64,000 nucleotides of DNA from Oceanibaculum indicum P24. Lineage in GTDB: Bacteria > Pseudomonadota > Alphaproteobacteria > Oceanibaculales > Oceanibaculaceae. The position numbers were made by a program, and so were the translations under genes. The notes below the pieces were generated by a model that worked only from the letters and a program-made list of their open reading frames with translations, searched no databases and was not told the DNA's origin. Shown in pieces: positions 4,783 to 61,914 of this stretch (position 1 is its first letter; each line of letters begins with the position of its first letter). Location: contig NZ_AMRL01000002.1 of the NCBI RefSeq assembly GCF_000299935.1, positions 1 to 64,000 on the forward strand, in the 5' to 3' direction.

Positions 4783-6059
4783 CAGTTTCTCCCTTGCGAT
4801 AGAGGCTGAGGAACCCGGTCCTCCGCCCGTGCGTAATAGGCCAGCGCCAGCAGCGTCACCACTGCCAGCGCCGCGAACAGGAACCGGTAGGGCAGATCGG
4901 CCGCCCCCGGCACGGACGCCGCCACGAAGCCGATCAGCACGCCGCTGGCCATCTGCAGGGCGGCGGCACCGGTCTGCACCGCAATGTTCACCGTGGTGAT
5001 GCCGCGCCCCACCAGATGGTCGGGGAACAGCGTGCGGCCATGGGCGACGACGATGACGTTATAGGTATTGAACAGGGTGAAGCCGATCAACAGCGCGGCC
5101 ACCAGCCACAGGCTGGACTCGGCGAACATCGCAAGGCCGGCAAGGCAGGCCATGCTGCCGCCGCCACCCGCCAGCACCAGCTTGCGGCGGCTCTGGATGC
5201 GGCGGTCCAGCGGGCTGTAGATCAGCGTGCCGGCAATGATGGCGAGGCTCATCCCCAGCAGGATATTGCCCCGCTCCACCCCTTCCAGCCCGTGCACATC
5301 GTGCAGGAAGGGGGCCGCCCACAGCCCCAGCACGGTGATGGTGCAGGCATAGGTAACGAAGCCGGGCGCCAGGATGTAGGGCAGCTGCGGGTTGCGGAAC
5401 ACCGCCTTCAGCCCGGCCCAGATATCCGCGCCGCTCTCGCGCTTGCGGGCGAGGAACTGATGGCCGGGCGGCGCATCGCGTACCCCGGCCAGCACGGCCA
5501 GAACCACGGCCAGCGTCACCAGCCCCATGACCAGGAAGGTGCCGCGCCAGCCCAGCCATTCGGTCGCCAGCGCCATCGGCGTGGTGGCCAGCAGGTTGCC
5601 GGCATTGGACAGGGCAATCATCCAGCCCATCGTCATGGTGAAGGAGCGCGCATCGAACCAGCGCGCCAGCACCACGAACCCGCCCATCATCACGCCGGCG
5701 CAGCCAATGCCGATCAGCACCCGGGCCAGCACCACATGCCAGTAGGTCTCCGCCAGGAAAAACACGATGGAGCCCGCCACCGCGAACAGCATGGTGCCGG
5801 CGATGGTGAGGCGCGAGCCATAACGGTCGAGCAGGATGCCGGTCGGGATCTGGGTCAGCGCGAAAGTCAGGAAGAAGGCCGCCGTCAGCATGCCCATCTC
5901 GCTGGCCGACAGCGCCAGGTCGCGCATCAGCTCCGGCGCGATGACGCCGGTGGCCGAGCGGAAGAACTGGCTGAGAATCGCCGCCAGGCCGAGGCAGAGA
6001 AAGATGCGGATGACGGTGGCGCGCCAGCCTTCCGGCCGCCTCTCTCCTGCCTCGTCCAT
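4782..6059 (-). CDS. MFS transporter
   Basis: A 425-residue major facilitator superfamily permease with about 12 hydrophobic helices and the loop 2-3 motif GILLDRYGSR near residue 75. It resembles the sugar-acid/metabolite:proton symporter or NNP-like branches, but the substrate is not determinable. It starts 7 bases after the dehydratase stop and overlaps the oxidoreductase start, so the three genes form one minus-strand operon. By position it probably imports the compound dehydrated by the neighbouring IlvD/Edd enzyme (inference). Confidence 0.88.
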   Translation of the reverse strand: MDEAGERRPEGWRATVIRIFLCLGLAAILSQFFRSATGVIAPELMRDLALSASEMGMLTAAFFLTFALTQIPTGILLDRYGSRLTIAGTMLFAVAGSIVFFLAETYWHVVLARVLIGIGCAGVMMGGFVVLARWFDARSFTMTMGWMIALSNAGNLLATTPMALATEWLGWRGTFLVMGLVTLAVVLAVLAGVRDAPPGHQFLARKRESGADIWAGLKAVFRNPQLPYILAPGFVTYACTITVLGLWAAPFLHDVHGLEGVERGNILLGMSLAIIAGTLIYSPLDRRIQSRRKLVLAGGGGSMACLAGLAMFAESSLWLVAALLIGFTLFNTYNVIVVAHGRTLFPDHLVGRGITTVNIAVQTGAAALQMASGVLIGFVAASVPGAADLPYRFLFAALAVVTLLALAYYARAEDRVPQPLSQGRN

Positions 6060-8617: not shown

Positions 8618-8670
8618 GGCGCCTTCCGAGCTCAGGGAAAGTCGCTGGAGCCCAGACAAACCTCCAAACC

Positions 8671-8790
8671 GTCACCCCCGCACTTGTTGCGGGGGTCCAG
8701 GCCTCGGCTCACTGGATCGTGTACTGAGCAGGCTGAAGCCTGGATTCCCGGCCCCTCTGGTTAAGCCAGAGGATGGCCCGGGAATGACAG
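8671..8790. repeat. Convergent-gap palindromic repeat, copy A (expanded right hairpin)
   Basis: First of five related elements (others at 27175, 38653, 47781, 61812). The left hairpin is CCCCCGCA-CTTGT-TGCGGGGG. The right arm keeps ATTCCCGG...CCGGGAAT, but the usual five-base loop is replaced by a second stem, CCTCTGG-TTAAG-CCAGAGG. The element begins with GTCA and ends with TGAC. It sits between gntR (plus) and the multicopper oxidase gene (minus), which converge on it. Confidence 0.85.
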
Positions 8791-27145: not shown

Positions 27146-27174
27146 GGGATTTCGAGCGTGCCGCCCCCCTCAGA

Positions 27175-27275
27175 CGCCACACCCGGCCTTGTGCCGGGGG
27201 TCCATGCCTCCGCTTACTGGATGCCTATCGAGTAGGCTGAACCCTGGATTCCCGGGACAAGCCCGGGAATGACGG
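27175..27275. repeat. Convergent-gap palindromic repeat, copy B
   Basis: The left hairpin is ACCCGGC-CTTGT-GCCGGGG. A roughly 50-base middle follows, then the right hairpin ATTCCCGGG-ACAAG-CCCGGGAAT and TGACGG. It closely matches copy C, including the CCCTGGATT boundary. The leftmost bases are degraded compared with copy C (GCCACA instead of GTCACC). It lies between the AEC gene (plus) and the helicase gene (minus), which converge. Confidence 0.85.
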
Positions 27276-38265: not shown

Positions 38266-38589
38266 ATGAAGAATCTGGCAAGCATGATGAAGCAGGCGCA
38301 GCAGATGCAGGCCCGCATGACCGAGATGCAGGCCGAGCTGGAGCGCCACGAGATGACCGGCCAGTCCGGCGGCGGCATGGTGACCGTCACGCTGAACGGC
38401 AAGGGCGAGATGCGGGCGATCAAGATCGACCCGACGCTGGCCACGCCCGAGGATGTCGAGGTGCTGGAAGACCTGATCGTTGCCGCCACCAACGACGCCA
38501 AGGCCAAGGTCGAGGCGCACATGGCCGAGCAGATGCAGAAGCTGACCGGGGGCATGAAACTGCCCGAAGGCATGAAGCTGCCGTTCTGA
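38266..38589 (+). CDS. ybaB: YbaB/EbfC family nucleoid-associated protein
   Basis: A 107-residue DNA-binding nucleoid protein. It opens with [18 protein letters not shown], continues with the beta-hairpin [18 protein letters not shown], and ends with a Met/Gly-rich [16 protein letters not shown] tail. The start at 38266 is 4 bp past the dnaX stop, the standard dnaX-ybaB pairing. recR, which often follows, is absent here; repeat copy C comes next. Confidence 0.95.
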
Positions 38590-38652: not shown

Positions 38653-38755
38653 CCGTCACCCCCGGCCTTGTGCCGGGGGTCCAGGCTTCCGCTTGCTGGA
38701 TGCCCGCTCGAGTAAACTGAACCCTGGATTCCCGGGACAAGCCCGGGAATGACGG
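38653..38755. repeat. Convergent-gap palindromic repeat, copy C (best preserved)
   Basis: The left end is CCGTCAC followed by the hairpin CCCCGGC-CTTGT-GCCGGGG and TCCAGG. The right end is CCTGGATT and CCCGGG-ACAAG-CCCGGG, closing with AATGACGG. The two 33-base halves are inverted copies of one another, differing where each hairpin has its own compensated stem bases. It lies between ybaB (plus) and the dCTP deaminase gene (minus), which converge. Confidence 0.9.
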
Positions 38756-38816
38756 CTGGAGGAAGCGAAAGCGAGGTTAGGTGGAGCTGGGTGAGGGGGA
38801 GCCCCCCGAAGCCCCC

Positions 38817-39992
38817 CTATCGGCGGAACTGCTTGCCCAGCGTCAGCCCCTGGCGCTGGTAGGAGGAGCCGATGCCCTGCCCGTACAGCTTGTCAGGCGC
38901 GGCCGACAGCTTCTCGTAGATCAGCCGGCCGACGCGCTGGCCATCCTCGATCAGGAAGGGCACGTCGTGCGAGCGCACTTCCAGAACGCCGCGCGAGCCG
39001 ATGCCGTCGCCGTCGCGCCCGCCGGCCGCACCATGGCCGAAGCCGGGATCGAAGAAGCCGGCATAATGCACGCGGAACTCACCGACCGAGGTATCGTAGG
39101 CCACCATCTCGGCGGCATGGTCGGGCGGCACCGCCACGCTTTCCTTGGACGCCAGGATGTAGAAATCGTCCGGGTCGAGCACCAGCCCGTCCTTGGCGGC
39201 GCGCAGCGGCTCCCAGAAGTCTTCAATGGCATAAGCACCGATATTGTCGAAATCGATGAGGCCGGCATTGCGCCGGGCGCGATAGCCGATGACGCCGCCG
39301 GCAAAGCCGGGGGCCGCCGTCTCGCCCGACAGATCGACGCTGAACGGCACGCCGCCGCGCAGATCGGCGCGTTCCAGCGCCCGGTCGGTCAGCTGCTGGG
39401 CCGCGTGCAGCGCATGCAACTCGGAGGCGCTGAGGCCGGGCTGCCCCTTGCGCAGGCGCAGCTGGTTCAGCCGCGTGCCCTGACGCACCAGCACCGAAAA
39501 GGTGCGCGGCGCGATCTCGGCATAGAGCGGCCCTTCATAGCCGGCGGGGATCGCCTCGAACGCCTCGCCGCCATCGGTGATGACGCGGGTGAAGATGTCG
39601 AGCCGCCCGGCCGAGCTTTTCGGATTGGCGAGCCCGGCGATGCCGGCGCGCAGCCGCAGCCGTTCCATCAGCGGCACGATATAGACACAGCCACGCTCCA
39701 GCACCGCGCCGCGCGACAGATCGATCTCGTGCATGCCGAACTGCTCGATCTTCTGCCGCACCGCCACACCCTGCCCCGGCAGGAAGCTGGCGCGCACGCG
39801 GTAGGCGATGGCCCCCAGCCGCAGGTCGAGGCTGGCCGGCTGCACCTGATCCTCCCCAATCGGCACATCGGCCAGGATATCGCCCTGCTCGATCAGATAG
39901 CGCAGCATCTGGGAGGGCAGGATGCCGGTGCCGCGCACCGGCTGGGCCGGAGCACCTGAGGCGGAGGCGGTCTGCGGGGCGCTGTCGGCCAT
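38817..39992 (-). CDS. dcd: dCTP deaminase (long alphaproteobacterial form)
   Basis: A 391-residue 2'-deoxycytidine 5'-triphosphate deaminase that makes dUTP for thymidylate synthesis. It is about twice the length of E. coli Dcd (193) and seems to contain two dUTPase-like halves. The first has NPKSSAGRLDIFTRVITD with the substrate-binding SSAGR; the second has GFFDPGFGHG. The start at 39992 precedes an Ala/Ser-rich leader; a longer frame to 40094 would overlap the rpmH promoter region. The double-length form is typical of Rhodospirillales and Rhizobiales in my recollection. Confidence 0.85.
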   Translation of the reverse strand: MADSAPQTASASGAPAQPVRGTGILPSQMLRYLIEQGDILADVPIGEDQVQPASLDLRLGAIAYRVRASFLPGQGVAVRQKIEQFGMHEIDLSRGAVLERGCVYIVPLMERLRLRAGIAGLANPKSSAGRLDIFTRVITDGGEAFEAIPAGYEGPLYAEIAPRTFSVLVRQGTRLNQLRLRKGQPGLSASELHALHAAQQLTDRALERADLRGGVPFSVDLSGETAAPGFAGGVIGYRARRNAGLIDFDNIGAYAIEDFWEPLRAAKDGLVLDPDDFYILASKESVAVPPDHAAEMVAYDTSVGEFRVHYAGFFDPGFGHGAAGGRDGDGIGSRGVLEVRSHDVPFLIEDGQRVGRLIYEKLSAAPDKLYGQGIGSSYQRQGLTLGKQFRR

Positions 39993-40102
39993 GGGCTGTC
40001 GCGGTCCTTCGTTCGCGGCTAATGCAGCCGTCATACCGTCGCAATGGTTTCCGTGGCAAGATGCCAGCATGTGCCGATTAGTGCTTTGCCGCACGGCTCA
40101 CA

Positions 40103-44703: not shown

Positions 44704-44798
44704 AGGAGACTGGCAACGACCCGAAGCGAAACTCGTTACGGCTGCTTCCTTCCGGACCTGACCGGGTTGGCGAGGACTCCGTCCGCGCCAGCCTCCCG
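44704..44798 (-). ncRNA. ffs: Signal recognition particle RNA (small bacterial type, 4.5S)
   Basis: On the minus strand the apical domain GGTCAGGTCCGGAAGGAAGC, the Ffh-binding GGAA-tetraloop region, is exact. The arms pair as expected: GAGGCTGGC (44795-44787) with GCCAGTCTC (44714-44706), a nine-base-pair helix with one G-U. The length of about 95 bases is that of alphaproteobacterial small SRP RNA. A T-tract (CTCCTTTTC) follows the 3' end as terminator. With Ffh it targets nascent membrane proteins to the Sec/YidC machinery. End points are estimated to within a few bases. Confidence 0.93.
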
Positions 44799-47729: not shown

Positions 47730-47780
47730 GCGTCAACGCGGCGGATTCAGATGTTCTGTCAATACCGACCTACCCTAAAT

Positions 47781-47880
47781 CGTCACCCTCGGGCTTGACC
47801 CGAGGGCCCAGGGGCGGCGCCTTGCCTGGGACGCCATGCCCTGCGTCCCTGGATTGCCGGGTCAAGCCCGGCAATGACAA
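47781..47880. repeat. Convergent-gap palindromic repeat, copy D (divergent subtype)
   Basis: Left hairpin CCCTCGGG-CTTGA-CCCGAGGG; right hairpin ATTGCCGGG-TCAAG-CCCGGCAAT; ends CGTCA and TGAC. Stem bases differ from the other copies on both sides of each stem. The middle contains its own inverted pair around CAGGG...CCCTG. It lies between nudC (plus) and pheA (minus), which converge. Confidence 0.8.
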
Positions 47881-61811: not shown

Positions 61812-61914
61812 CCGTCACCCCCGGTCTTGTACCGGGGGTCCATGGTTCAGCCTTCTCAGGCCGGGCCATTGCAAGCCGAAGCCTGGATTCCCGCAACAAG
61901 TGCGGGAATGACGG
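61812..61914. repeat. Convergent-gap palindromic repeat, copy E
   Basis: Left hairpin CCCCGGT-CTTGT-ACCGGGG; right hairpin ATTCCCGCA-ACAAG-TGCGGGAAT; ends CCGTCA and TGACGG. The right stem carries CGCA/TGCG where copies B and C have CGGG/CCCG, a compensated change. It lies between the GST gene (plus) and the TAXI gene (minus), which converge. Confidence 0.87.

Follow-up and report, generated by a model that had tools for sequence, protein, structure and literature searches.

The segment at 38653-38755 of the window (the whole 64,000-nucleotide stretch of Oceanibaculum DNA analysed here) carries two hairpins in inverted orientation, and four relatives lie in the same window. A sequence-only reading had taken the paired changes among the five copies (A to E) as a sign of selection on a folded molecule, possibly with kissing loops. 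This raises two questions. First, what kind of element is it? Second, does the constraint act on the single hairpins or on the pair, as RNA or as DNA, and how would such an element have spread?

Architecture of copy C and its family

Both hairpins are present, and so are the reverse-complementary loops CTTGT and ACAAG of copy C and all the stems that had been quoted, namely CGCA/TGCG on the left of copy A, CGGC/GCCG and CCCGGG in copies B and C, TCGGG/CCCGA and GCCGGG/CCCGGC in copy D, and CGGT/ACCG and CCGCA/TGCGG in copy E. By direct reading, copy C (103 bp, + strand, ACCCCC-type hairpin first) is CCGTCACCCCCGGC-CTTGT-GCCGGGGGTCCAGG ... CCTGGATTCCCGGG-ACAAG-CCCGGGAATGACGG, with the consensus unit CCGTCA-YYCCCGNN-CTTGT-NNCGGGRR-TCCAGG present once on each strand. 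The left REP unit, nearer position 1 (38654..38683, + strand), consists of a CGTC tag (38654-38657), a stem (38658-38666/38672-38680), the loop CTTGT (38667-38671) and a CCA tail (38681-38683). A conserved, asymmetric spacer (38684..38724) separates it from the inverted right unit (38725..38754, − strand), in which the CCA tail is at 38725-38727, the stem at 38728-38736/38742-38750, the loop (CTTGT on the − strand, ACAAG on the + strand) at 38737-38741 and the CGTC tag at 38751-38754. Each unit, like the consensus of the alignment described below, thus has a 9 bp stem, a 5 nt loop and a CCA tail, with the CGTC motif unpaired at one end. The first two stem pairs are A-T and T-A in the right hairpin, and A-T followed by C-G in the left one.

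In the portion of the 2013 report by Di Nocera, De Gregorio and Rocco cited here, CGTC REPs are described as a CGTC tag, an 8-9 bp stem, a 4-5 nt loop and a CCA tail, forming mostly head-to-head dimers with complementary stem variants, mostly in alphaproteobacteria (PMC3733652). Judged from its sequence, copy C is a head-to-head CGTC-REP dimer, CGTC-3-like, in Oceanibaculum, and belongs to a known kind of repeat.

Copies A (8669..8789, end approximate), B (27174..27275), D (47780..47880) and E (61812..61914) all lie on the + strand. The right hairpin of copy A contains an apical insertion, CCCGG CCCCTCTGGTTAAGCCAGAGGATGG CCCGGG, which the sequence-only reading had missed. Apical extensions of another sequence, of the ACCCCATGG..TTGGG type, are found in other dimers of 112-115 bp, at C8:17030 of the source genome and at C4:34655 and C4:122983 of the sister species G001. 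Given this recurrence, a second loop class may exist. Copy D belongs to a divergent subfamily. Related to it is a second unit subfamily with the loop CTTGA (GTCACCCCCGGGCTTGACCCGGGGGTCCA), found in the source genome at C14:58788, C14:66192, C3:213338 and C5:184889, for example, and often lacking an exact partner.

The source genome (G000) is a 3.95 Mb draft. About 2.8 Mb was sampled in stretches from three species; the main counts come from 2.03 Mb of this, and the other 0.8 Mb served as held-out regions. The strict unit pattern has 182 matches in the source genome, against 0 for a reversed control pattern, and a sequence search finds at least 40 full dimers there; copy C belongs to a set of at least 40 near-identical dispersed copies. 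With fold z-scores against shuffles of −5.5 (as DNA) and −7.3 (as RNA), together with the strict matches and the dimer count, the pattern lies far beyond chance. Plasmid records contain no match to the element.

The pairing of units is strict. All adjacent units less than 100 bp apart are head-to-head (73/73), and the unit spacing of these close pairs is 40 or 41 nt in 73/73. An autonomous version, sought as a head-to-head unit pair 100-4000 bp apart, does not occur in the sampled 2.03 Mb. A CTC box lies exactly 8 nt outside GTCA at 52 of 79 left ends and 29 of 79 right ends; copy C has it only on the right (38759..38761, − strand, GAG on the + strand, 8 nt outside the right unit's GTCA). The box is not seen in the family of the CGTC-rich genome G227, where conservation ends at the C of CGTC, and was therefore rejected as a general CGTC feature.

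Covariation within and between the hairpins

To judge the paired stem changes, 72 dimers from three species were aligned (alignment A1), with shuffles and slid partners as controls. In the hairpin stems 99.2% of cells are paired, compared with 89.8% in shuffles, and there are 99 two-sided changes, the signal being lost when partners are slid. All of these changes are confined, in each hairpin, to the two pairs next to the loop; the covarying positions carry few recurrent tip alleles, and G-U pairs occupy only a handful of stem cells. The covariation predicted for a larger alignment is accordingly found inside single hairpins and is absent arm-to-arm and loop-to-loop, pairing of the left with the right arm being 83.9% against 83.5% in shuffles. 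For 40 of the 72 dimers, the best fold as RNA is a single long hairpin in which arm pairs with arm. This is not the structure that covaries, and it was rejected because arm pairing equals that of shuffles.

That the loops of the two hairpins kiss, or that both hairpins build some other long-range RNA structure, had been suggested by the complementarity of CTTGT and ACAAG, which copy C shares with 56 of about 80 dimers. However, the loops are complementary because the two units are inverted copies of one unit, so that the complementarity is no independent observation. None of the loop changes in the 72 dimers is compensated (0); in 13 dimers the left loop reads TTTAT, and the right loop is an unchanged CTTGT throughout those. 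Kissing loops are refuted at the level of covariation, and as an explanation of the element we regard them, or another long-range RNA structure, as hardly credible, although the loops of a transcript may still touch without being selected to do so.

Since the hairpins covary while arms and loops do not, each hairpin is maintained separately. The constraint acts on single hairpins and is as compatible with DNA as with RNA, if not more so. As the stems are intact, hairpins must be either favoured or repaired.

At ten sites occupied both in the source species and in G001, hairpin similarity does not exceed that between unrelated sites (mean identity 0.88 and 0.87, against 0.89 and 0.84), whereas the spacers and flanks are more alike at these orthologous sites than at unrelated ones. 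At C8:25764 and C8:60712 of the source genome the spacers are conserved relative to the ortholog, and the right hairpin's tip shows a complete set of compensated base differences. Hairpin tips probably move as blocks between copies, and such exchange explains the tip patterns as well as stepwise compensation does. Whole-tip exchange would yield the same counts, and therefore selection on RNA folding is not demonstrated: that the stems are paired and covary holds for 72 dimers of three species, and the step from there to selection on the fold does not follow. Covariation in dispersed repeats should in general be read with caution, as it may reflect the copying of whole tips and not necessarily RNA-structure selection.

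Placement and orientation in the genome

Copy C begins 64 bp after the stop of a gene at 38267..38589 (+ strand) which, from its sequence and open reading frames and with dnaX upstream, we presume to be ybaB/ebfC-like after the known dnaX-ybaB gene pair. On its other side lies a dCTP deaminase-like (dcd) gene (38817..40094, − strand), named from sequence resemblance. The ends of the two genes face each other, so copy C sits in a convergent gap. Such gaps hold 45 of 87 dimers, compared with 234 of all 1321 gaps (18%), although these context counts carry some error, the bulk gene caller having missed the ybaB-like gene beside copy C. The median distance from dimer to stop codon is 48 bp. Elsewhere in the window, a bacterial small SRP RNA is found at 44704-44794 (− strand, 56.5 bits).

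Could the dimer be an RNA element, transcribed at both convergent gene ends, whose hairpins protect or terminate mRNA 3′ ends on both sides, in either direction, and are selected for their fold? The strong enrichment in convergent gaps, the short distance to stop codons and the very stable RNA fold would all suit it, and in the part of their report cited here Di Nocera et al. lean towards transcription in the case of many REPs (PMC3733652). However, an intrinsic terminator (GC hairpin followed by a U-tract) was found at 0 sites on either strand, and at Rfam gathering scores the only match in the window is the SRP RNA, with none for the element. G-U pairs are nearly absent, and the long arm-to-arm fold preferred by 40 of the 72 dimers is the very one whose arms lack covariation. 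Moreover, the preference for convergent gaps would arise just as well if selection removed those insertions that hit promoters and operons. We consider an RNA element rather unlikely, the more so as it does not predict the orientation bias inside convergent gaps that is described next.

The dimers are asymmetric (ACCCCC-type hairpin first), which allows their orientation to be scored; the counts for the source genome, G001 and G002 use dimers of at least 60 bits. In the source genome, plus-oriented dimers lie where GC skew is negative and minus-oriented ones where it is positive in 46 cases against 11 (p = 3e-6), and 14 contigs against 3 agree with the rule; skew serves here only as a proxy for the direction of replication, and dimers common to several species are not independent. 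The rule is followed 10:2 in G001 and, in the held-out regions fetched afterwards (at least 60 bits), 12:3 in the source genome and 10:5 in G001. Inside convergent gaps, where gene direction is neutral, the ratio is 34:11 over three species. The bias is absent in G002 (12:12 dimers), for which one possibility is that rearranged segments have a lagging skew. In G227 heterodimers occur in both orientations along a 2.45-Mb contig, as seen by eye with no skew computed. On contigs C2 and C3 of G002 and C15 of the source genome, all or nearly all dimers agree with one another and oppose the rule, and one dimer site is common to C15 of the source genome and C2 of G002.

Presence, absence and decay among species

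Contig C2 of the source genome and G001 are collinear, with 87-92% identity. Four of the five copies (A, B, C and E) have no counterpart in the orthologous gaps of G001, and the site of D is occupied in both. The empty alleles of G001 also lack some 50 bp to either side of the element, and a clean insertion junction was not obtained; with flanking DNA missing as well, a deletion in G001 is possible. Other dimers are common to two or three species, and some copies are, on this distribution, old.

No flank offset or length gives a target-site duplication beyond single chance cases, and a DDE-type MITE was rejected for want of one. No mobilising enzyme, excision product or recent clean insertion was found, which counts against a mobile element. 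Are the dimers, then, ancient repeats without present mobility, homogenised by gene conversion, with losses accounting for presence and absence? Several findings favour this: orthologous sites do not have hairpins more similar than those of unrelated sites, flanking DNA is gone from the empty alleles, and the source genome holds an internal-deletion remnant and one copy seemingly replaced by another. Yet gene conversion alone creates neither the family nor an orientation linked to skew, and we think it unlikely as the whole explanation.

The remnant, with both ends kept and the middle deleted, lies at about 8644-8675 within the stretch G000:C3:62001-82000 and is orthologous to the G001 dimer C4:122983, so that it illustrates decay by internal deletion. 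At about 5320-5460 within G000:C8:60001-80000 a dimer apparently lies within the left end of an older dimer; the site is occupied in both species, a possible same-site replacement. In O. pacificum (G003) many contigs end within or beside dimers (C1, C42, C79, C91, C134, C161, C175). Draft assemblies are broken by the repeat, and comparisons of synteny can be misled by it.

Which enzyme could move the dimer?

How CGTC REPs spread has been a standing question since the 2013 report, which in its cited part found no dedicated transposase and no association with RAYTs (PMC3733652). The asymmetric Oceanibaculum dimers make the question testable, since their orientation can be scored and follows a proxy of the replication strand in two species.

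A classic REPIN moved by a RAYT (TnpA-REP, a Y1 HUH transposase), acting in trans or recently lost, would have the doublet architecture and the compensatory stem changes (PMC3116915), and the single-strand, strand-specific chemistry of that family (PMC8266576) would suit the orientation bias. The tag, however, is CGTC instead of GTAG, and Y1_Tnp/RAYT (PF01797) is found neither in the source genome nor in three other Oceanibaculum genomes (G000-G003), while control genomes are positive. Among 289 alphaproteobacteria, 35 are CGTC-rich with at least 10 unit matches; at E 0.001 Y1_Tnp is absent from 29 of these 35, and a further genome has only a match below the curated cut-off. As the domain is likewise lacking in 79% of the remaining 254 genomes, there is no association, and in this class-wide survey CGTC REPs are not linked to RAYTs. 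A RAYT-moved REPIN, already disfavoured, is very improbable. The IS110-type transposase PF02371 is also absent from the source genome.

The orientation bias combined with the lack of a RAYT points to some other enzyme working on single-stranded DNA. We propose that the CGTC-REP heterodimer is probably a mobile DNA element of the non-autonomous kind, which spreads or once spread as one unit of 103 bp. In favour of this are the size and strict architecture of the family, covariation limited to single hairpins with scarcely any G-U, the four copies missing from G001, the lack of a target-site duplication and of Y1_Tnp, the preference for convergent gaps and the orientation bias; the even orientation in G002, the two-way heterodimers of G227 and the old copies common to several species speak against it. 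A putative enzyme would recognise each hairpin as single-stranded, folded (or extruded) DNA and act on just one of the replication strands, probably the template of the lagging strand; tips would be exchanged between copies, and any effect on mRNA 3′ ends could be a by-product. More specifically, CGTC-REP heterodimers in general might be single-strand mobile elements that insert one way relative to the fork through a non-RAYT enzyme, the CTC box forming part of its recognition or cleavage site, a proposal that is possible rather than probable.

Comparison with known repeats

The element shares with REPINs and BIMEs an inverted REP doublet as the unit, hairpins, compensatory changes and an intergenic location (PMC3116915, PMC8266576), but lacks their GTAG tag, having CGTC, and its genome lacks a RAYT gene. 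In the cited part of the 2013 report, dRS3 of Neisseria and RPE-4 and RPE-6 of Rickettsia are listed as CGTC-1, CGTC-4 and CGTC-1, respectively (PMC3733652). These belong to the same CGTC superfamily and to other subfamilies; dRS3 is largely clustered and the RPEs are often within genes, unlike the Oceanibaculum dimers. The RIME elements of Rhizobium, intergenic repeats of about 109 bp with two palindromes, resemble the dimer as far as this general description goes.

The closest likeness is to the CGTC REPs themselves, as described in the portion of the report cited here (PMC3733652): the tag, the 9-bp stem, the 5-nt loop (families 3 and 4), the CCA tail, heterodimers, convergent or unidirectional intergenic sites, an alphaproteobacterial host and the lack of a dedicated transposase. 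That portion does not name Oceanibaculum as a host genus, and in its families the first two pairs of the stem are almost invariably A-T, whereas the left stem in Oceanibaculum has C-G as its second pair. To the features described there, Oceanibaculum adds the outer CTC box, the fixed spacing of 40/41 nt and an orientation linked to GC skew.
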